This document shows positions 10,071 through 41,240 of a stretch of 64,000 nucleotides of DNA, piece after piece. The position numbers and the translations under genes were made by a program. The number at the start of each line of letters is the position of its first letter. The stretch's first letter is position 1. A model generated the notes under the pieces. It ran no database searches. It saw nothing but the letters and a program-made list of their open reading frames with translations, and was not told the DNA's origin. This DNA comes from Spirosoma sp. (lineage in GTDB: Bacteria > Bacteroidota > Bacteroidia > Cytophagales > Spirosomataceae): assembly GCF_026391055.1 (NCBI RefSeq), contig NZ_JAPLET010000026.1, positions 124,001 through 188,000 of the forward strand, written 5' to 3'.

Positions 10071-10150
10071 TTGGTTGTTAGTTATTGGTTATTGAATTAT
10101 GGCTTATAGTTACGAGAATAACTAAACGAATGCCATTAACTAACAACCAA
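10071..10150. repeat. Imperfect palindrome of TTGGTTGTTAGTTATTGG type after the GH109 gene
   Basis: Arms at 10071-10088 and 10133-10150 are 18 bases with one mismatch, around a ~44-base spacer. It starts three bases after the GH109 stop codon. There is no clear U-tract, so it may be an intergenic repeat and not a simple terminator. A looser element with similar words follows tamL (about 23414-23504). Confidence 0.6.
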
Positions 10151-20013: not shown

Positions 20014-20760
20014 TTAATTAATCGTTCTACGCCAGTTATCCAGCAACACGGCCGTAGCAATACCAACATTGAGTGATTCGGCATCGCCAAAGCGCGGGAT
20101 TGTTACCCGCTGGGTAACAAACGTACCTACTTCCGGCCGGATACCGTTCGATTCATTACCCATCACCAGATAACCCGAAGCATCAAACCCGAGCGAGTGT
20201 ACATCTTCACCATCCAGAAACGCCCCGTATACGGCACTGGTAGCCTGAGCCAGCACCTGAGTAATGTCGCCGTACCACCAGTTAACTCGGGTAAAGGAGC
20301 CTTTACTGGCCGAAATAACTTTGGGATTATACACATCTGCCGTGGTTTCGGAACACAAAATCTTGCGTACGCCGTACCAGTCGGCAATACGCAGAATGGT
20401 ACCGAGGTTGCCAGGATCTCGAATATCATCTAAAATCAGGGCAATCTCATTGAGACCCGCCAATAGTGGACGGTTCTCTTTCGTTCTGACCACAGCAAGC
20501 GCAGCATTGTTACTTTCGAGGGTTCCGGCTCGCTCCAGTTCAGCCACTGATGTAATTTCGACAGGCGTTCGTTGGTGGTCTGTCAGGTGTGCGTTTTCTT
20601 TGTAGAATCCTTCGGTCGCTACAACCAGTTCCGTCTGGAAATCGGATTGTAGTACTTCCTGAACGCTTTTGGCTCCTTCAACCAGAAATGCGCCATGCTG
20701 CTGCCGGTATTTTTTCTGGTGCAGCGACTGAATATATTTAAGTTGATTTTTAGAAAGCAT
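20014..20760 (-). CDS. SpoU/TrmH-family RNA 2'-O-ribose methyltransferase
   Basis: This 248-residue protein has the three SPOUT knot motifs: LDDIRDPGNLGTILRIADW (motif 1), YLVMGNESNGI (motif 2) and IPRFGDAESLNVGIATAVLL (motif 3). The N-terminus (KYIQSLHQKKYRQQHGAFLVEGAKSV) is the SpoU substrate-binding domain typical of RlmB/TsnR-like enzymes that methylate 23S rRNA or tRNA. The target nucleotide is not predictable. Its start codon shares two bases with the start of the divergent tamL-like gene. Confidence 0.92.
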   Translation of the reverse strand: MLSKNQLKYIQSLHQKKYRQQHGAFLVEGAKSVQEVLQSDFQTELVVATEGFYKENAHLTDHQRTPVEITSVAELERAGTLESNNAALAVVRTKENRPLLAGLNEIALILDDIRDPGNLGTILRIADWYGVRKILCSETTADVYNPKVISASKGSFTRVNWWYGDITQVLAQATSAVYGAFLDGEDVHSLGFDASGYLVMGNESNGIRPEVGTFVTQRVTIPRFGDAESLNVGIATAVLLDNWRRTIN

Positions 20761-23413
20761 GAGAAATAGGTATGATACAGGCTGTAGGGTGTCTGATTGG
20801 TTTGCGGGCTATACATCATATACCATACATCATACATCCCGATTAAGCTTACTCTTTCTGGTTATTTCTTTATCGGGCTGCCTGAGTTCCAGCCAGCTGC
20901 GTAATAATGGATACATCCTCACGTCTCATGGTGTGCGGGGCAACAAGACGATTCCAGATGAGGACCTGATTAGCCTGGTTCCCCAAAAACCGAATCGGCG
21001 ATTACTTGGACTACCCATCACAACCCAGTTGTGGCTGTATCAATGGGGAGCACGCCGATACAACCGCGAAGCAGCTATCCGGGAATTACAGGCCAAAACT
21101 AATGAATTTGAACAGCAAAGCCAGCTGATAGCTGATCAGCCCCGAGAGCTAAAAAAGCTCAACCGACGCTATGGCCGTCAATTAAAACGCCTTCGTCAGA
21201 AAGCCGAAGAGGGGAACTGGGTTATGCGTAATCTGGGTGAACCGCCCTCCTATTTTTCCGATAAAGATGCACAGGCCAACGCCGTTAAAATGCAAAAGTA
21301 CCTTTCTGACAAAGGTTTTTTTAATGCAAAAACGGGCTACGAACTTGATACGTTGCGCCGTAGTCAGGTTAGGGTGAACTACCTCATTAATGAGAATGCG
21401 GGCTTTTACCTTCGCAATATCGTGTATGAAATTGCCGATCCGCGTGTCGACTCCATTGTTCGGCAATCATTCGACAAATCCCTGCTTCATACCGGCGACC
21501 GGTTCGACTTCAGTAACATGTCGGGAGAGAAAGTGCGTATCGAGACACTACTGCGTGATCAGGGTTACTACGCTTTCTCCCGTCAGTATATTCGGGCTAC
21601 GGATGTCGACACCGTACGCCGGGGAAATGACCGACGTTTCTTTAACGGTCTCGAACCCGGCGATTCGCTACGGCGTAATGTTGATGTAGTTCTCCAGATT
21701 ATAAACCCGCCGGGTTTATCGGCACACCCTATTTACCAGATTGGTGACGTTGAAGTACGTATAAGCCCCGATGAAACACAACCAGCCGCTGCCCGCGCGG
21801 CTCTGGATACCATCAGACGGGACGGCATTACTTATCTGCTGGGTGGCCGTGACATTTCGACCCGGCTTTTAAGTTCGAAAGTACTCCTGCGGCCGGGTCA
21901 ACTGTATAATCAAACTAACTACCGCGACACCCAACGGCAACTGTTTCTGTTGAATCAGTTTAAGTTTGTCAACCTCAACTTTACCGATACCACCAACCGA
22001 CGGCTGCGCACGCTCATTACGGCCACACCACTTGACAAGTACGAAGCCACGGCGGAAGGCGGTGTTACGGTTCTTTATCAGGGCCAGGGTGGTTATCCGG
22101 GTGGATTTGGCAGCCTGATTTTCCGGGTTCGCAATCTGTTTGGCGGTTTGGAAACCTTTGAAACGACCGTACGCTTTGGTATCGAGGCCCAGACAGGTTT
22201 TGTGACCAGTGCCAACAGCAACCGGTATGTATACGATTCGAAGGAGTTGGGCATCATCAGTTCCGTTACCTTCCCGCAGATTCTCTTTCCGGGACGGGCA
22301 CGATTTGTTTTCAGTCGTGCCAATCCTCGTACGCAGGTCAGCTTGAGTTACAATAACACCCTGCGTCCTGACTTCCGGCGATCATTGCTACGCGCCACGA
22401 TGGCCTACAACTGGCAACCCAGCCCGGTTAAGCAGTTCAGTTTTTTCATTGCGGACATTAACCTCATTAATGCCAATTTCGATACGGAGCTGGGGCCACT
22501 TTTTAAACAGCAATTAGACTCTTTGGGCAAACTAGGCAATACAATTGGGTTGAGTTTCAGACGTTCTTTCGCATCCGGCCTTAGCTTTGCGTATACCTAC
22601 AATACCAATACTGTCGGGCAGAACAAGCGGGCTAATTTCCTGCGTACAGTCGTTGAATCAGGCGGGACAACACTTAACTTATTTAGAAACTATCAGTTGC
22701 GCGAGTTCTTCAAAACAACGGATTCAACTGGTTTACAGTACTATAAATACATACGCGTTAACGCCGACTTCAGGCATTACGTCCCACTTAATGCACATAC
22801 CACACTGGCTTTCCGCCTAAATACCGGTTTGGTTTACAGTTACGGTTCTAACCGGACAGCTCCTTACGAAAAGTTATTCTTCGCTGGAGGCAGCAACAGC
22901 CTGCGCGCCTGGTTACCCCGCCGTTTAGGCCCCGGTGCCGACTACCCGCAGCCATCGGCATCCGACCCTACTCAACCGGCCATCAAGTCAGGAACGGATC
23001 AATTTTTATACACCTTCGAAAAACCGGGCGATATGCTCATTGAAGGTTCAGCGGAGTTACGGGGTCGCTTGTTCCGACTCGGCTTCGCCGATATCAATGG
23101 GGCCGCATTTATTGATTTCGGCAATGTATGGCGCTTGCCATACAGTAATGCCAATGCCAGAGGCATATTCAGATTCGATTCATTCGTCCCCCAAATCGCC
23201 GTTGGTACAGGCGTAGGGCTGCGCTTCGACTTCTCGTTCTTTATTATCCGCTTCGATGGAGGTATTAAAGTTTGGGACCCGGCCCGGCAGTATATAGACG
23301 GCGACAAAGGCCCGGTAGACAAGCGATTCCTGCTTCGCGAGTTTTCACTCGGCAAACTCTCCAGCGGCCCCAACCCTTTGATTATAAACTTCGGTATTGG
23401 TTACCCTTTTTAG
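20759..23413 (+). CDS. tamL: TamL-like lipidated BamA/TamA-family outer-membrane protein
   Basis: The 884-residue product combines a lipoprotein signal (LVISLSGC, Cys near residue 41), POTRA-like domains (residues ~45-430, including NNGYILTSHGVRGNKTIPDEDL and LLLRPGQLYNQTNYRDTQRQL) and a C-terminal 16-strand Omp85 barrel (YEKLFFAGGSNSLRAWLPRRLGPG and the closing NFGIGYPF). Bacteroidota use this lipidated TamA form (TamL) with TamB to build the outer membrane. The only ATG before the lipobox is at 20759; it overlaps the divergent methyltransferase start, and residues 2-27 are encoded by low-complexity ATACATCATA-type DNA, so the true start may be a later non-ATG codon. Confidence 0.85.
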   Translation: MRNRYDTGCRVSDWFAGYTSYTIHHTSRLSLLFLVISLSGCLSSSQLRNNGYILTSHGVRGNKTIPDEDLISLVPQKPNRRLLGLPITTQLWLYQWGARRYNREAAIRELQAKTNEFEQQSQLIADQPRELKKLNRRYGRQLKRLRQKAEEGNWVMRNLGEPPSYFSDKDAQANAVKMQKYLSDKGFFNAKTGYELDTLRRSQVRVNYLINENAGFYLRNIVYEIADPRVDSIVRQSFDKSLLHTGDRFDFSNMSGEKVRIETLLRDQGYYAFSRQYIRATDVDTVRRGNDRRFFNGLEPGDSLRRNVDVVLQIINPPGLSAHPIYQIGDVEVRISPDETQPAAARAALDTIRRDGITYLLGGRDISTRLLSSKVLLRPGQLYNQTNYRDTQRQLFLLNQFKFVNLNFTDTTNRRLRTLITATPLDKYEATAEGGVTVLYQGQGGYPGGFGSLIFRVRNLFGGLETFETTVRFGIEAQTGFVTSANSNRYVYDSKELGIISSVTFPQILFPGRARFVFSRANPRTQVSLSYNNTLRPDFRRSLLRATMAYNWQPSPVKQFSFFIADINLINANFDTELGPLFKQQLDSLGKLGNTIGLSFRRSFASGLSFAYTYNTNTVGQNKRANFLRTVVESGGTTLNLFRNYQLREFFKTTDSTGLQYYKYIRVNADFRHYVPLNAHTTLAFRLNTGLVYSYGSNRTAPYEKLFFAGGSNSLRAWLPRRLGPGADYPQPSASDPTQPAIKSGTDQFLYTFEKPGDMLIEGSAELRGRLFRLGFADINGAAFIDFGNVWRLPYSNANARGIFRFDSFVPQIAVGTGVGLRFDFSFFIIRFDGGIKVWDPARQYIDGDKGPVDKRFLLREFSLGKLSSGPNPLIINFGIGYPF

Positions 23414-23643: not shown

Positions 23644-25188
23644 ATGGACTCTCTATTTATGACGCTCATACCTGAACTAACCATACTGCAACCTGACGAT
23701 AAAGAGCACATCGACTTACCCCGTACGCTGGAAGATGAGTTAGCGGTTGGTAAGAAACGACTGTATATCGAAAGCTACGGTTGCCAGATGAACTTTGCCG
23801 ACAGTGAGATCGTCGCAGCTGTGATGCGGAATGCCGGTTATGCCACTACCTCATCGGCCGACGAAGCTGATGTGATTTTTCTGAATACCTGCGCCATCCG
23901 CGACAATGCCGAACAGAAAGTCCGGCACCGGCTCAAGCACCTTACCGGTCTGAAACGCCAGAAACCTGAACTTCTGGTTGGGATGCTCGGCTGCATGGCC
24001 GAACGGTTGAAGACCAAACTGCTCGAAGAAGAAAAAGTGGTCGACATCGTAGCAGGGCCCGATGCCTACCGCGATATTCCGAAGTTGGTTGAAGAAGCCG
24101 AATCGGGCCAGAAGGCCGTTAACGTGTTCCTGTCCCGCGAAGAAACCTATGCCGACATTTCGCCAATACGGCTGAATTCGAACGGTGTTACAGCTTTTGT
24201 GTCCATTATGCGCGGCTGCGACAACATGTGCAGTTTCTGCGTAGTACCGTTTACTCGTGGCCGCGAACGCAGCCGTGACCCCTTTAGCATTGTTCGTGAA
24301 GCACAGGACCTCTTTGACCAGGGCTACCGTGAAGTGACCCTGCTCGGGCAAAATGTGGATAGTTATAAATGGGAAGGAGTCGTATTAGGAGCGAGGACGG
24401 GGCCGCCCGGCGGTGAGGAGCGAGGAGAAGAGGATGCGTCAGCAACTCCTCACCGCCGGGCGGCCCCGTCCTCGCTCCTCACTCCTAATACTAACATTAC
24501 CACCTTCGCGCACCTGCTCGAAATGGTGGCTCAGATACATCCAGATCTTCGGGTGCGTTTTTCGACCTCGCACCCAAAAGATATTACGGACGACGTGCTG
24601 CATACCATGGCCCGGTACGACAACATCTGCAACTACATCCATTTGCCTGCGCAAAGCGGAAATAGCCGGGTATTGAAACTAATGAACCGGACCTACGACC
24701 GCCCCTGGTACATTGGTAAAATTGACCGCATCCGGGAAATTCTGGGAGAAGACTGCGGCATTTCGACCGATATGATTTCGGGATTCTGCACCGAAACCGA
24801 AGACGAACATCAGGATTCGTTATCGCTCATGGACTACGTGCATTACGACTACGCCTACATGTTCGCTTACTCTGAACGTCCAGGTACGCTGGCGGCAAAA
24901 AAATATGCGGACGACATTCCGGAAGATGTCAAGAAGCGTCGTCTGAACGAGATCATTGCCCGACAGCTAACACACTCGGCTGCACGCAACCAACGACATA
25001 TTGGCCAGGTGCAGCGTGTATTGATCGAAGGAACGTCCAAACGATCCGACGACTTCCTTTGTGGTCGGAATGACCAGAACAAGATGGTCGTTTTTCCGAA
25101 AGGTAACCACCAGAAAGGCCAGTACGTCAATGTATTAGTGACGGAGTGTACGTCAGCAACGCTGCGGGGCGAGGTAGTTAATGCATAA
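23644..25188 (+). CDS. miaB: tRNA-2-methylthio-N6-dimethylallyladenosine synthase with an internal repeat-derived insertion
   Basis: MiaB adds the methylthio group to i6A37 of tRNAs reading UNN codons. The N-terminal UPF0004 domain has its three cluster cysteines in [21 protein letters not shown] and [10 protein letters not shown]; the radical-SAM site is CDNMCSFC (CxxxCxxC) near residues 190-200; a TRAM-type domain closes the protein. At 514 residues it is longer than usual (~440-480). The surplus sits between QNVDSYKW and [11 protein letters not shown], where 24382-24491 is a GC-rich palindrome encoding an Arg/Pro/Gly/Glu-rich segment. The frame is kept, so the insertion probably forms a tolerated loop. 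Confidence 0.95.
24382..24491. repeat. GC-rich palindromic element inside the miaB reading frame
   Basis: The arms 24391-24420 and 24446-24475 are perfect 30-base reverse complements with a 25-base loop; an outer GTATTAGGA/TCCTAATAC pair extends the symmetry to 24382 and 24491 with a 7-base bulge. Such a hairpin is unusual in coding DNA. Words in its arms (TTAGGAG, AGGAGTGAGGA, GCGAGGA) also occur in the intergenic palindrome at 41157-41230, so it looks like a member of a repeat family inserted in frame. Confidence 0.85.
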
Positions 25189-25275
25189 TGAAGAATGGGT
25201 AATGGATAATGAATAACGCTGTCAAGCTAGTTTTTTAGTATCCATTACCCATTACTCATTGTCCATTATTCATTA
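25179..25275. repeat. ATTATTCATT-type palindrome between miaB and the sigma-54 regulator
   Basis: The left arm (25179-25208) and right arm (25239-25275) are near reverse complements built from TAATGAATAATGG, AATGGGTAATGGATA and similar words, with a small length difference. The left arm covers the miaB stop codon. Close relatives lie at 26677-26764 and 30001-30096. It may be an intergenic repeat that also ends transcription; no strong U-tract follows. Confidence 0.75.
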
Positions 25276-25284
25276 GAGGCAGTT

Positions 25285-26667
25285 ATGAATCAACAGGAAA
25301 TTCAAAGCGTTAAACAGCGCTTCGGCATAATCGGTAATGCGTCCGGCCTTAACTACGCCATTAACGTGGCCATGCAGGTATCGGCAACGGACCTCACCGT
25401 GCTCATTACGGGCGAAAGTGGAAGTGGTAAAGAATCGTTTTCAAAGATAATCCATAGCCTGAGCGCCCGTAAACATGGTCAGTTTATTGCCATCAACTGC
25501 GGAGCCATTCCAGAAGGTACCATCGACTCCGAACTGTTTGGTCATGAAAAGGGCTCATTTACCGGTGCAGTAGACTCCCGGAAAGGCTATTTCGAAACCA
25601 CCAACGGGGGAACCATCTTTCTCGACGAAATCGGCGAAATGCCCTTGGGTACCCAGGCCCGACTCCTGCGTGTACTTGAAAATGGGGAATTTATCCGCGT
25701 AGGTTCATCCAAGACACAAAAGACGGATGTGCGGGTTGTGGCGGCCACAAACGTAAATCTGATGGAAGCGGTTGAGAAGGGCAAGTTTCGGGAAGACCTA
25801 TATTACCGGCTCAATACGGTCCCTATCTTTGTCCCGCCCCTCCGCGAACGCGGCAACGACATCGAGCTGCTGTTTCGTAAGTTCACCACCGATTTCGCCG
25901 AACGTTACCGAATTAAACCGCTTCAGCTTACCGAAGGAGCCAAGCAGGTACTGATCAGTTACCCGTTTCCGGGTAATATTCGTCAGTTGAAGAATATCGC
26001 CGAGCAGGTGTCTATCCTTGAGTCGGAGCAGAACAAACCCATCGAAGCCGAGACGTTGTCAAAATACCTGCCTCAACCGCAGCAAAGTAACCGGACCTTA
26101 GCCTTGTTTCCACAGGCTAATGGAGGAAATGGTGCCGACAATTTCTCCGAACGAGATCTGCTTTATAAAGTTTTGTTCGACATGCGCCGGGATGTGAACG
26201 ATCTGAAAAAGCTCGTTCGCGACGTCCTGATGGGCAACGAACAGGACAGCGATCATATCCTGCATACACATAAAGACCTGTTCGACTCCATTTCACCTGA
26301 TGGTGACAACCGGCCGTTAACCGATACCAACATTACGCGTCTGCTACCGGCCGTTAATGGTACAATTCGAACGGATACCCCTCCGCCCCGAACGGCTGTG
26401 CCACCTTCCGAAACCTACGGCAGTCACCCGCCTGTACAGATTTTCGATGATGTTGACGGCGACATCAACGACTTAACCGAAGTGGAAGATGTTACGCACG
26501 AAACCGAAGAAGACGACTCGCTCTCGCTCGAACGCCAGGAGAAAGAAATGATATTAAAAGCCCTCCGGCGCAACAATAACAAACGGAAATACGCTGCTCA
26601 GGCACTCGGCATCTCGGAGCGCACGTTATACCGGAAAATCAAACAGTATGAAATTGATGAAGAATAA
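25285..26667 (+). CDS. Sigma-54-dependent transcriptional activator without sensory domain
   Basis: The 460-residue protein starts almost directly with the AAA+ domain: Walker A GESGSGKE (residues 43-50), the sigma-54 contact loop as GSFTGA (about 90-95; the usual form is GAFTGA), Walker B TIFLDEIGEM (about 110-119), and the arginine-finger region REDLYYRLNTVP. A variable, acidic linker (residues ~270-420) leads to a C-terminal Fis-type helix-turn-helix (KRKYAAQALGISERTLYRKIKQYEI). No receiver, GAF or PAS domain is present, so regulation must come from elsewhere. It leads into lptE-like, TPR and secG genes, an order I recall from other Bacteroidota. Confidence 0.9.
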   Translation: MNQQEIQSVKQRFGIIGNASGLNYAINVAMQVSATDLTVLITGESGSGKESFSKIIHSLSARKHGQFIAINCGAIPEGTIDSELFGHEKGSFTGAVDSRKGYFETTNGGTIFLDEIGEMPLGTQARLLRVLENGEFIRVGSSKTQKTDVRVVAATNVNLMEAVEKGKFREDLYYRLNTVPIFVPPLRERGNDIELLFRKFTTDFAERYRIKPLQLTEGAKQVLISYPFPGNIRQLKNIAEQVSILESEQNKPIEAETLSKYLPQPQQSNRTLALFPQANGGNGADNFSERDLLYKVLFDMRRDVNDLKKLVRDVLMGNEQDSDHILHTHKDLFDSISPDGDNRPLTDTNITRLLPAVNGTIRTDTPPPRTAVPPSETYGSHPPVQIFDDVDGDINDLTEVEDVTHETEEDDSLSLERQEKEMILKALRRNNNKRKYAAQALGISERTLYRKIKQYEIDEE

Positions 26668-26674
26668 TTTTCTA

Positions 26675-27223
26675 ATGAATAATGGAAAATGGATAGTGAA
26701 TAATCCTAAGGGGTGGATGTCGTTTTTGTTTTATACATTATTCATTCTCCATTGTACATTATTCCTTTCCTCCTGCGGAGTGTATTCATTCACGGGCACG
26801 ACCCTTTCACCCGATATTAAAACGGTTACTGTAAATAATTTTGTGCTGGCTACAGCGGGCGGCCCGGCCAACCTGCCCCTGACGTTTAATGAAAAACTGA
26901 AAGAATATTACCAGCGGTATACCAGCTTAAAAGTTGTCCCGAACAACGGCGATATGGTACTGGAAGGTAATATTACGGGGTATGACCTGCTGGCCGTTGC
27001 TCCAACAGCTCAGGACCAGGCGGGCGTTAACCGACTACAGATCACTGTGTTGGCTCGGTTCTACAACAATAAAGACGAAAGCAAGAATTTCGAACAATCC
27101 TTTTCCTTTTATCAGGACTTCCCGCAGGGGCAAACATTAAGTCAAAATGAAAGCCGTCTGGTGCCGAAAATTTTGGACCAGATTGTACTAGATATATTTA
27201 ATAAAACAGCGGCCGACTGGTAA
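26675..27223 (+). CDS. LptE-like outer-membrane lipoprotein
   Basis: The mature protein starts at the Cys of LFLSSCGVYSFTG and contains TTLSPDIKTVTVNNF, KLKEYYQRYTSL, GDMVLEGNITGYDL and a helical C-terminus, as in Bacteroidota LptE-like proteins that partner LptD to insert lipopolysaccharide. ATGs at 26648, 26657, 26675 and 26717 could start it; 26675 is the first after the regulator's stop and gives 182 residues with a charged N-terminus. The DNA for the start and the hydrophobic signal core is an ATTATTCATT-type palindrome (26677-26764), so the signal peptide is repeat-derived. It probably shares an mRNA with the regulator. Confidence 0.8.
   Translation: MNNGKWIVNNPKGWMSFLFYTLFILHCTLFLSSCGVYSFTGTTLSPDIKTVTVNNFVLATAGGPANLPLTFNEKLKEYYQRYTSLKVVPNNGDMVLEGNITGYDLLAVAPTAQDQAGVNRLQITVLARFYNNKDESKNFEQSFSFYQDFPQGQTLSQNESRLVPKILDQIVLDIFNKTAADW
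26677..26764. repeat. ATTATTCATT-type palindrome encoding the signal peptide of the LptE-like protein
   Basis: Left arm 26677-26704 (GAATAATGG...TGAATAAT) pairs with right arm 26737-26764 (ATTATTCATTCTCCATTGTA, continuing to ATTATTC) over nearly its whole length. The right arm, read in frame, encodes LFILHCTLF, the hydrophobic core of the lipoprotein signal peptide. It shares words with the elements at 25179-25275 and 30001-30096. Confidence 0.75.
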
Positions 27224-28253: not shown

Positions 28254-28673
28254 GTGACAACCGAATTCATGGTAACGGCAACTATTGTCATCATTTGTAT
28301 CCTCACCGTTCTTCTGATTCTTATCGTACTTGTTCAGAACTCAAAAGGCGGAGGACTGGCCGGCGAATTTGGAGGCTTAGGCTCTAACCAACTCATGGGC
28401 GTAAAGAAAACCACCGATCTGCTCGAGCAGATCACGTGGGGTCTTGGCATCGGCGTTATGGTGCTGTCGATGGCATCGTACATCATGATCGATCGTAATC
28501 AGGCTACCGGCATCAACAGTGCAAACGTAGATCGTGCACAAACACAAACCTTACCGGGCGCTGCCGCCCCAACACCTGCCCCGAGTGCAGCAAATGGTGC
28601 GGCTCCAAGTCAGGCAGTTCCAGGTGCAGCCACACCCGGAGCTTCTACTTCGGCGTTAACGCCCCAGAAGTAA
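28254..28673 (+). CDS. secG: Preprotein translocase subunit SecG
   Basis: The protein has two membrane segments (residues ~8-28 and ~58-80) linked by the SecG loop VLVQNSKGGGLAGEFGGLG, which joins SecY and SecE in the inner-membrane translocon. The C-terminal tail after the second segment is long and Ala/Pro/Thr-rich (about 50 residues, PGAAAPTPAPSAANGA-like), as is common in Bacteroidota. The GTG at 28254 is used here; an ATG at 28269 would shorten it by five residues. A strong terminator follows directly, closing the regulator-lptE-TPR-secG group. Confidence 0.93.
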   Translation: MTTEFMVTATIVIICILTVLLILIVLVQNSKGGGLAGEFGGLGSNQLMGVKKTTDLLEQITWGLGIGVMVLSMASYIMIDRNQATGINSANVDRAQTQTLPGAAAPTPAPSAANGAAPSQAVPGAATPGASTSALTPQK

Positions 28674-28688
28674 CGTTTGGCAAAAACG

Positions 28689-28740
28689 ACAAAAACACAA
28701 AAAGCCATACCTTTTCGGGTATGGCTTTTTGTGTTTTTGT
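28689..28740. terminator. Bidirectional terminator between secG and a convergent gene
   Basis: The arms 28689-28711 and 28718-28740 are perfect 23-base reverse complements around the loop TTTTCG. The stem core (GCCATACC) is flanked by A/T runs, giving a U-tract on either strand. It separates secG (plus) from the convergent unknown gene at 28744-29451 (minus). Confidence 0.92.
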
Positions 28741-30000: not shown

Positions 30001-31745
<1,745 letters not shown>

Positions 31746-32634: not shown

Positions 32635-33297
32635 TTACGTGAACAAAAGTCCATCTCTAATCGTCACGGTTCGGTCGGCGAGGGATGCCAGCGCTTCGTT
32701 GTGTGTTACTATTATGAATGTTTGGCCGAGTTCGTCACGAAGTCGAAAAAACAGTTGATGCAGTTCTTCGGCGTTGCGCGAATCAAGGTTTCCGCTGGGT
32801 TCATCGGCAAAGACAATAGCGGGTTCATTGATCAGTGCGCGCGCTACCGCAGCCCGTTGCTGTTCCCCTCCTGATAATTGTGACGGTAGGTTCGTCAGAC
32901 GATGTTCTAAACCGAGTGTTGTCAGTAAATCCTGGGCACGTTGCCGAACAGCTCGCTCATCTTTACCAGCGATAAACCCTGGCAGACACACATTTTCCAG
33001 CGCTGTAAATTCGGGGAGGAGGTTGTTAAACTGAAAAACGAACCCAATACGCTCATTTCTGAACTGTGCCAGTTGCCGGTCGTTGAGTGTGAACACATTT
33101 TGTCCGGCAATATGTAATGTACCGGAGTCAGGCCGATCGAGCGTACCAAGAATCTGAAGTAGCGTTGTTTTACCAGCACCCGATGCACCCACAATGGAAA
33201 CTACTTCCCCGGATTCGATGGCTAAATTTATGCCTTTAAGTACGGGAAGATCGCCGTAGTTCCGGCGTATATCGGTCGTTTGAAGAAGAGAACTCAT
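32635..33297 (-). CDS. LolD-like ABC transporter ATPase
   Basis: This 220-residue ATPase has Walker [13 protein letters not shown]-loop region [18 protein letters not shown], signature [15 protein letters not shown], Walker [13 protein letters not shown] and switch His in [20 protein letters not shown] and the [10 protein letters not shown] stretch are typical of LolD/MacB-type ATPases that energise FtsX-like permeases in lipoprotein sorting. A matching LolC/E-like permease is at 13942, about 18 kb away; the partner is inferred. The gene is divergent from sucC. Confidence 0.88.
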
Positions 33298-33306
33298 GCT
33301 TAATGA

Positions 33307-33389
33307 TATATGATGAATGATAAGTGACGCGTAATGAATTGATATTTTAGCGACCTGCGTTTATCATTCATCATTCATCATTCATCATT
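33307..33389. repeat. ATCATTCATC-type palindrome between the lolD-like gene and sucC
   Basis: ATATATGATGAATGATAA (from 33307) faces GCGTTTATCATTCATCATTC and a further ATCATTCATCATT (33357-33389), itself a short tandem of ATTCATC. The core ATGATGAATGATAA is perfectly complementary. It fills the divergent intergenic region, so the promoters of both genes must lie in or next to it. Confidence 0.6.
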
Positions 33390-34663: not shown

Positions 34664-34743
34664 TGTACCCGACAGCCTCTGACTGTCGGTGTGTAACAAG
34701 CTTATCTATTCTAGATACTGACAGCCAGAAGCTGTCGGGTACA
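34664..34743. repeat. GTACCCGACAGC palindrome after sucC
   Basis: Left arm 34664-34690 and right arm 34717-34743 are 27 bases with three mismatches, all compatible with G-U pairing. It begins at the sucC stop. Its inner GACAG...GAAG...CTGTC words are related to the small hairpins at 2276 and 61826. It precedes a separate, perfect terminator. Confidence 0.75.
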
Positions 34744-41155: not shown

Positions 41156-41156
41156 A

Positions 41157-41230
41157 GTAGTTAGGAGTTAGGCGCGAGGAGTGAGGAGGCAACACGCTAT
41201 TCTCACTCCTAGCGCCTAACTCCTAACTAC
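41157..41230. repeat. GTTAGGAGTTAGG palindrome before the ECF sigma gene
   Basis: Arms 41157-41185 and 41202-41230 are 29 bases with a single mismatch, separated by 16 bases. The arms hold the words TTAGGAG, GCGAGGA and AGGAGTGAGGA, which also occur in the palindrome inside miaB (24382-24491). It lies two bases after the transketolase stop and ends ten bases before the sigma factor start. Confidence 0.85.
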
Positions 41231-41240
41231 TAAACTAAGA

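Follow-up and report, generated by a model that had tools for sequence, protein, structure and literature searches.

Palindromic heptad repeats probably encode the core of the LptE lipoprotein signal in Spirosoma

In Yersinia, a palindromic repeat, RU-2/YPAL, contributes to the predicted signal peptide of YPO1552 (Delihas 2007, PMC2759123). The Rickettsia palindromic elements (RPE) measure 105-146 bp and carry terminal inverted repeats (Ogata et al. 2000, as cited in PMC2229807), heptamer repeats of the unit TAACTGA are reported from Beggiatoaceae, Cyanobacteria and some Bacteroidetes (PMC4679880), and repetitive extragenic palindromic (REP) sequences are defined by a GTAG or CGTC tetranucleotide at one end (PMC3733652). 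Hairpins can be made and maintained by template switching, as described for RNA genes (PMC8794818). Here we describe a hairpin of seven-nucleotide units (heptads) at the start of an lptE-like gene of Spirosoma sp. It lies in a stretch of 64,000 nucleotides (assembly GCF_026391055.1, contig NZ_JAPLET010000026.1, positions 124,001 to 188,000, forward strand), the whole of which is called the window below. Comparison of the sequences makes it likely that this palindrome is protein-coding and encodes the core of the LptE signal, and that it is kept in frame by selection while being rewritten in heptad steps.

The lptE hairpin and its reading frame

The gene, the hairpin and the upstream gene are arranged as follows (window coordinates).

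25285-26667, + strand: sigma-54-dependent regulator gene, upstream of lptE; the hairpin starts 6 nt past its stop
26648-27223, + strand: lptE-like gene, 191 amino acids from the ATG at 26648, with an alternative ATG at 26657
26674-26704, + strand: left (G-rich) hairpin arm, residues 10-19 (MNNGKWIVNN), polar n-region
26705-26736, + strand: hairpin loop, PKGWMSFLFYT, with a Lys and the beginning of the hydrophobic stretch
26737-26767, + strand: right (G-poor) hairpin arm, residues 31-40 (LFILHCTLFL), the h-region
26765-26776, + strand: lipobox L40-S-S-C43, with Cys43 as the predicted lipidated residue

The Pfam profile LptE (PF04390) matched residues 57-186 of the 191-residue open reading frame (ORF) with an E value of 3.4e-14 (53.9 bits against a gathering score of 23); no NCBIfam model matched at E 0.001. 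The gene begins within the final codons of its upstream neighbour (stop TAA at 26665-26667), and a similar start region was present in most Spirosoma rows of the orthologue table described below. The two arms are 31 nt each and 84% complementary. Self-identity of the hairpin was 0.73 at a shift (lag) of 7 and at most 0.39 at lags of 4-6 and 8-11, and the heptad unit of 26674-26767 is CATTNNN, in an inverted-repeat arrangement.

A sequence-only reading of this DNA had placed a palindrome at 26677-26764. That palindrome is real, and the span given lies just within the two arms. Its right arm, read in the lptE frame, does give LFILHCTLFL directly before the SSC of the lipobox, and the 10-residue hydrophobic core lies wholly within this arm. 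The left arm had been said to encode the N-terminal residues; it is indeed read in frame, as polar residues 10-19 ahead of the core and not as the first residues. With a charge of +4, a core hydropathy of 2.39 and the lipobox LSSC, the signal has the properties of a type II lipoprotein signal sequence.

Orthologous loci (numbered with L; G000 is the window's own genome and G010 a sister genome) were collected by a search of the genus (36 genomes, counting that of the window), in which 35 genomes gave a match. This search supplied 30 loci, and a further 80 named loci, the best 80 of 83 from the genome collection, completed a table of 110. The alignment of the genus comprised 21 of the 30 loci, and the lipobox Cys was invariant in all 21.

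In 27 distinct lptE hairpins, the LptE frame contained 2, 0 and 0 stops in the left arm, loop and right arm, respectively, against 96, 39 and 22 in the other two frames. Both in-frame stops belong to L058 (S. telluris), where the assembly has lptE frameshifted: its genome, G032, gave two overlapping matches at the same coordinates. Without this locus there were 0 stops in the LptE frame and 154 in the other two, all 26 intact hairpins being stop-free. Among non-coding heptad hairpins, the left-arm frames were open in 35% for the 36 hairpins of the own genome and in 41% for the 67 from other loci. The mean hydropathy of the right arm was 1.94 in frame and 0.76 and 0.90 in the other two frames, and the in-frame value was above the mean of the other two in 26/26; it reached at least 1.0 in 25/26, compared to 26% of non-coding right-arm frames. 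Together, the open LptE frame and the in-frame hydropathy argue for translation through both arms from the upstream ATG, and for selection on the core. Translation of the whole hairpin is most likely, and the peptide is predicted to work as a lipoprotein signal.

Hairpins at lptE and elsewhere in Spirosoma

A heptad hairpin within the LptE signal was found in many Spirosoma, in Arsenicibacter (L052), Fibrella (L055 and L056) and the neighbouring L054 and L057, and separately in two Emticicia-like rows (L065 and L109). The rows L059-L111 include 51 that lack such a hairpin (Larkinella, Lacihabitans, Aquirufa, Flectobacillus, Emticicia and others); of their signals, 38 had 17-28 residues, 10 were longer and 3 had mis-set starts. 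LptE of Fibrisoma has a long signal and no hairpin. The 94 distinct signals containing the Cys comprised 26 with a hairpin by the cut-off and 68 without, with median lengths of 47 and 25 residues; these are upper estimates, as the start was taken to be the most upstream Met within 62 residues. At least half of the 10-residue core was in the right arm in 20 of the 26 hairpin signals.

The heptad units at lptE vary by species (CATTATT, CATTCTT, CATTCAT, CTTTTCA, ACTGNTA and others) and differ even between closest relatives: CATTATT in G000 and G010 versus CATTCTT in S. fluviale, and likewise between S. luteum and S. spitsbergense. The signal FIILNSSFIIQSC occurs with a hairpin in L013, L015 and L026. 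L016 and L034 read FIILNVSFIFQSC, with a similar core, FIILNVSFIF, and only an 18-nt hairpin without heptad period. Signal and repeat change together among the orthologues, which bears out the proposal that the hydrophobic core comes from the palindrome, as does much of the n-region. Presence of the hairpin needs 12 changes when mapped on a quickly built tree of 92 rows, at least 8 of them on well-supported branches, although the tree gave long-branch warnings and 'absent' includes hairpins near the cut-off, such as that of Rudanella L051 (lag-7 0.53). From this tree we could not show that the lptE hairpin arose only once. Seven records of metagenome-assembled genomes titled 'Spirosoma fluviale' (L073, L085, L093, L096, L098, L100 and L107) have an LptE that is just 55-60% identical and group with Lacihabitans-like or Aquirufa-like rows; these species names look wrong.

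Pairing of the arms seems to go beyond what the codons need. Against synonymous recodings of their peptides, the 26 lptE hairpins stood out as more stable (median z -3.6). In 18 of them at most 1 of 200 recodings was as stable; for the window's hairpin it was 1 of 200. The mean match of a 24-nt left-arm piece was 0.86 to the right arm of the same hairpin and 0.65 to those of other species.

The neighbouring genes and further hairpins of the window are listed below.

20759-23413, + strand: tamL, 5.9 kb upstream of lptE (NCBIfam NF052279, lipo_TamL, 533.5 bits against a cut-off of 400)
20830-20885: hairpin in the signal region of this tamL, without heptad period (lag-7 0.23)
24387-24479, + strand: perfect 34-nt inverted repeat in miaB, predicted to be translated
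25179-25275, no strand assigned: CATTNNN-type heptad hairpin between miaB and the sigma-54 regulator gene; its first bases overlap the end of miaB
30001-30096, no strand assigned: non-coding heptad hairpin between groES and groEL
10071-10150, 33296-33388 and 41156-41231: further related hairpins

The hairpins at 25179-25275 and 30001-30096 are the two related non-coding copies that had been reported upstream and in the groES/groEL gap, and both were recovered (groES and groEL assigned by Pfam).

In the window's own tamL no heptad hairpin was found. Among the 30 loci that matched tamL (the match of L037 being a stray one), 10 have such a hairpin in the signal region (L033, L035, L036, L039, L042, L045, L046, L048, L054 and L057), within approximately 140 nt before the Cys codon; an eleventh case, the frameshifted L058, is not counted here. 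These 10 hairpins contain no stops in the tamL frame and 45 in the other frames. The right arm lies mostly in the n-region and reaches the hydrophobic core in L039, L045 and L057.

In miaB, the span after DSYKW has 21-61 residues in 20 Spirosoma-group rows (49 in the window), and a hairpin was found in 10 of these 20; other Spirosoma have different hairpins in the same loop. From L059 on, nearly every row has a span of 13-16 residues, and the 41 residues of L060 are of a different kind. The short form is also found in S. terrae (L034), Fibrisoma, Arsenicibacter and Rudanella (L051). The loop of L043 and L054 holds another kind of insert (PSPLGRGE...PLPNGEG in L054).

Runs of at least 3 CATT heptads occurred 7 times in the window and not once in 30 first-order Markov shuffles; the run at 33365-33389 is part of the hairpin at 33296-33388. 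An exact-pattern census of the genome was too strict (2 sites), and a looser pattern gave 18 single-arm matches, with 0 in the control. Hairpins (arms of at least 18 nt, at least 75% paired) were counted in a sample of 2,428,463 bases of the own genome (30.4%, window included). Of 797 hairpins, 59 had their best self-match at a shift of 7 bases, the next commonest shift (8) being found in 30; two shuffles of the sample together gave 2 lag-7 hairpins. The left arm was G-richer in 56 of the 59 heptad hairpins and C-richer in 3, against 397 and 290 (51 equal) of the non-heptad hairpins. Read from the other strand, a hairpin keeps this polarity, so the G-rich left arm characterizes the class and does not depend on orientation. 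Stop codons, which contain no C, may account for part of it. In the first set of loci plus the window, 103 of 111 heptad hairpins had the G-richer left arm (6 C-richer, 2 equal).

By a simple custom gene caller (76.8% coding), 56 of the 59 heptad hairpins were intergenic. This count is approximate and includes the lptE hairpin itself, since the caller starts lptE at GTG 26780, past the Cys. A stop codon lay within 15 nt of an end in 42 of these 56, compared to 159 of 402 other intergenic hairpins, and 23 of the 56 were within 25 nt of a start. Perfect or near-perfect hairpins within called genes were rare, with 5 in the sample, that of miaB included.

Three side observations concern other hairpins. 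A different one (GTACCCGACAGCCTCTG...) is found at window positions 34664-34743 and within a called ORF at G000 C3:347733-347793, and is possibly a second palindromic element family. A perfect 23-nt hairpin with a 6-nt loop, terminator-like, lies at 28689-28740 directly behind secG (28254-28673). At approximately 13.1-13.3 kb in the loci L035, L036, L038, L039, L042, L044-L046, L052 and L058, the presumed position of the groES-groEL gap as judged by distance from lptE alone, heptad hairpins of different sequence are present.

Fifteen heptad sites were compared with the sister genome, 13 of which could be aligned by both flanks (pieces of G010 were judged by eye); for sites 87772 and 376032 the flanks could not be paired. 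Site 25179 shows a deletion of exactly 7 nt in its left arm, site 41156 has matched changes in both arms, site 77293 was rebuilt with a different length and site 10071 has quite a different sequence. At site 30001, G010 has 61 nt without an obvious hairpin between flanks that are 97-98% identical, and at site 114617 (numbered on the joined stretch) 16 nt with no hairpin visible. Seven hairpins, that of lptE among them, differ little between the two genomes. These differences agree with slippage by heptads and with template switching, elements being both gained and lost. We infer that the arms are kept complementary mainly by these two processes, together with selection on the reading frame.

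Origin of the hairpin and alternative explanations

As 3 does not divide 7, a tandem heptad cycles through all frames and gives the same heptapeptide in each. (CATTATT)n reads HYSLFII in every frame without a stop, whereas its complementary strand has stops and ATGs in every frame; CATTGTC and CATTCTC units are stop-free on both strands. Natural arms show this property more weakly. In a first own-genome sample of 37 hairpins, 72% of right-arm and 35% of left-arm frames were open. For the 58 own-genome hairpins outside lptE, 50% of right-arm frames were both open and without charged residues, and mean Kyte-Doolittle hydropathy of the right arms was just 0.16. A strict 9-residue hydropathy cut-off was passed by 5% of right-arm frames and 1% of controls, but it is little informative, partly as arms average approximately 27 nt, and the whole-arm mean was used instead.

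The hairpin in lptE is best explained as follows. Spirosoma and its close relatives carry many short heptad hairpins, mostly intergenic and often directly behind a stop codon. With the lptE start preceding the stop of the upstream gene, a hairpin placed behind that stop falls within the lptE coding sequence, in the signal-peptide stretch, which tolerates sequence change; signal peptides are loosely constrained. Translation through the whole hairpin would turn the purine-rich left arm into a polar n-region containing Asn and Lys, and the G-poor right arm into a hydrophobic core reaching up to the lipobox. Gain, loss and replacement of heptad units would then alter the residues and yet tend to leave the arm stop-free and uncharged, because heptad runs read alike in every frame.

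We tentatively extend this to a wider proposal, about which we are doubtful ourselves: heptad hairpins may be self-rewriting signal-peptide modules, with a polar left arm and a stop-poor, little-charged and often hydrophobic right arm whatever the frame. Slippage and template switching would renew the slot, so that the lptE signal would have been rewritten several times across Spirosoma with export persisting, and that of tamL partly likewise. Six of the 59 heptad hairpins have a frame that is open across them into at least 60 coding codons, and among these lptE alone looks, in our judgement, like a signal; in the other 5 the start apparently lies past the hairpin, or the hairpin is in a gene body or an uncertain ORF. 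That many exported proteins of the genome owe their signal to heptad repeats was considered and is not supported, as 1 of 59 sampled hairpins reads as a signal. The same count, from the sampled 30% of the genome, goes against the statement in the sequence-only reading that such elements could readily create export signals. So does the mild hydrophobicity of the right arms outside lptE. Repeat-free lineages, moreover, already have a lipoprotein signal at lptE, so the signal was rewritten and not made from nothing.

Several observations weigh against a coding palindrome kept and rewritten under selection. The species are related, so the counts given for frames and hydropathy are not independent events, and any signal would be expected to have a stop-free and hydrophobic frame, which says nothing of the usefulness of a hairpin. 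Hairpin cores are in fact slightly less hydrophobic than the others (median 2.52 versus 2.80), and less than half of the core is in the right arm in 6/26. In 8 of the 26 hairpins 6-30 of 200 recodings fold equally well, and in only 17/26 species is the own right arm the best partner of the left arm; these stability and pairing figures are moreover biased upward, the 26-27 hairpins having been chosen for pairing and periodicity. Between G000 and G010 the lptE hairpin itself has no compensatory change. Many Spirosoma loci have a long signal at lptE and no detected heptad hairpin. Orthologues sharing the signal and lacking the repeat would speak against the repeat as its source: LFILHCTLFL was found only together with the repeat (window genome and G010), but in L022 and L037 the FIILNSSFIIQSC core is present with the heptad right arm kept and no hairpin detected. 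A core that is shared with and without a hairpin indicates that the signal can outlive the hairpin, which is then not needed; it does not refute an origin from the repeat.

It is possible, although we think it unlikely, that a mobile palindromic element, similar to REP sequences or miniature inverted-repeat transposable elements (MITE), was inserted independently in several lineages and was not rewritten in place. The different heptad types in closest relatives, the separate occurrence in the Emticicia-like L065 and L109 and the apparently empty 16-nt site of G010 at 114617 would agree with this. However, a fixed element sequence was not seen, and the 59 heptad hairpins fall outside the definition of REP, with GTAG or CGTC at either end in 8/59 and in the middle of the arms in 6/59. 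In systems of REP and REP-associated tyrosine transposases (RAYT), the hairpins adjoin a Y1 transposase gene. That arrangement was not found at the 3 Y1_Tnp matches (L253-L255, loci of 3.2-3.3 kb), where no heptad hairpin with arms of at least 18 nt was present; other transposase families were not searched. Only one of the three is stop-free, and its 3.3-kb locus has none; a single 17-nt hairpin in L254 has a lag-7 of 0.6.

We regard as improbable that the hairpin is kept as a regulatory mRNA structure behind the start, acting in translation coupling or mRNA stability, with the signal merely tolerating it. The arms do differ together across species, most fold far better than their synonymous recodings, and heptad hairpins often fill intergenic gaps near a start, as counted above. 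Against this, several close relatives have no detected hairpin at lptE, the groES-groEL hairpin appears dispensable, none being seen by eye in G010 in spite of the near-identical flanks, and a regulatory stem would not need heptad periodicity.

Still weaker is the view that the true start lies inside or downstream of the hairpin, and that part or none of it is translated; we give it little chance. The gene caller favoured GTG 26780 by codon score, and in-frame ATGs exist at 26675 and 26717. A start at GTG 26780, however, would lose the invariant Cys, and for this reason initiation past the arm, the earlier concern, is unlikely. All intact hairpins are open in the LptE frame, a Met at the place of ATG 26717 is missing in many orthologues, and M-[KR]-L-[MT]-[KR] or a close variant precedes the hairpin in most Spirosoma rows, an argument that is weakened by the overlapping gene, which also constrains the upstream ATG.

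That an AT-rich, low-complexity and fast-evolving signal region merely looks palindromic by chance is hardly credible: signal regions are compositionally biased, and L005, L012, L052 and L109 singly have 15-30 of 200 recodings as stable, but simple chance is rejected for most species by the shuffles (2 against 59 heptad hairpins) and by the synonymous recoding (at most 1 of 200 in 18/26), and outgroup signals are equally or more hydrophobic, yet without a hairpin.

Comparison with known systems

If the palindrome indeed encodes the LptE signal core, Spirosoma offers a natural series in which differing palindromes, translated in both arms, re-encode the signal of one conserved gene, and the series would show with unusual clarity how repeat DNA can become protein under selection. 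In addition, lptE offers a testable model of how hairpins stay paired, by mutation or by selection, because synonymous recoding separates the amino-acid constraint from the pairing constraint. In the open-licence literature, none of the matches listed was, by title and start of abstract, a paper on heptad hairpins in Spirosoma. Given the examples from Yersinia, Rickettsia and nematomorphs, coding palindromes, including one in a predicted signal peptide, are already known.

The lptE hairpin (26674-26767) is not a direct array of TAACTGA, its unit being CATTNNN and inverted. As described in PMC4679880, the TAACTGA repeats resemble it in having heptanucleotide units near starts and indels mostly in 7-nt steps in two strains, and the lptE signal of Spirosoma L030 and L043 uses an ACTGATA-type heptad; they differ in being direct arrays of one fixed unit, mostly non-coding, with a single inverted case in the genome described there. 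Template switching, as presented for RNA genes in PMC8794818, offers a mechanism for the paired multi-base changes in the arms.

In nematomorph mitochondrial genes both arms of inverted repeats encode protein, and amino-acid selection and pairing are kept together (PMC6649704). Those repeats are mitochondrial, long and perfect, and according to the same account lie in conserved regions and not in a tolerant signal.

The RPE, in the description of PMC2229807, are likewise hairpin repeats that are translated within conserved proteins and also found between genes. The open frames at lptE and tamL, the insert in miaB and the intergenic copies give the Spirosoma hairpins the marks of such protein-coding palindromes, with translation itself predicted. 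Unlike the RPE as described there, they have heptad periodicity, arm polarity and arms that differ from copy to copy, and their site is the signal peptide, along with the MiaB loop.

The closest likeness in position is YPO1552 of Yersinia, the relatives of which have predicted signals unrelated to the repeat, according to PMC2759123. The case described there concerns one element family of recognisable sequence and a putative exported protein. In Spirosoma, by contrast, the heptads vary, the gene is conserved across the genus, both arms are probably translated, and there is evidence for selection on frame and hydrophobicity.
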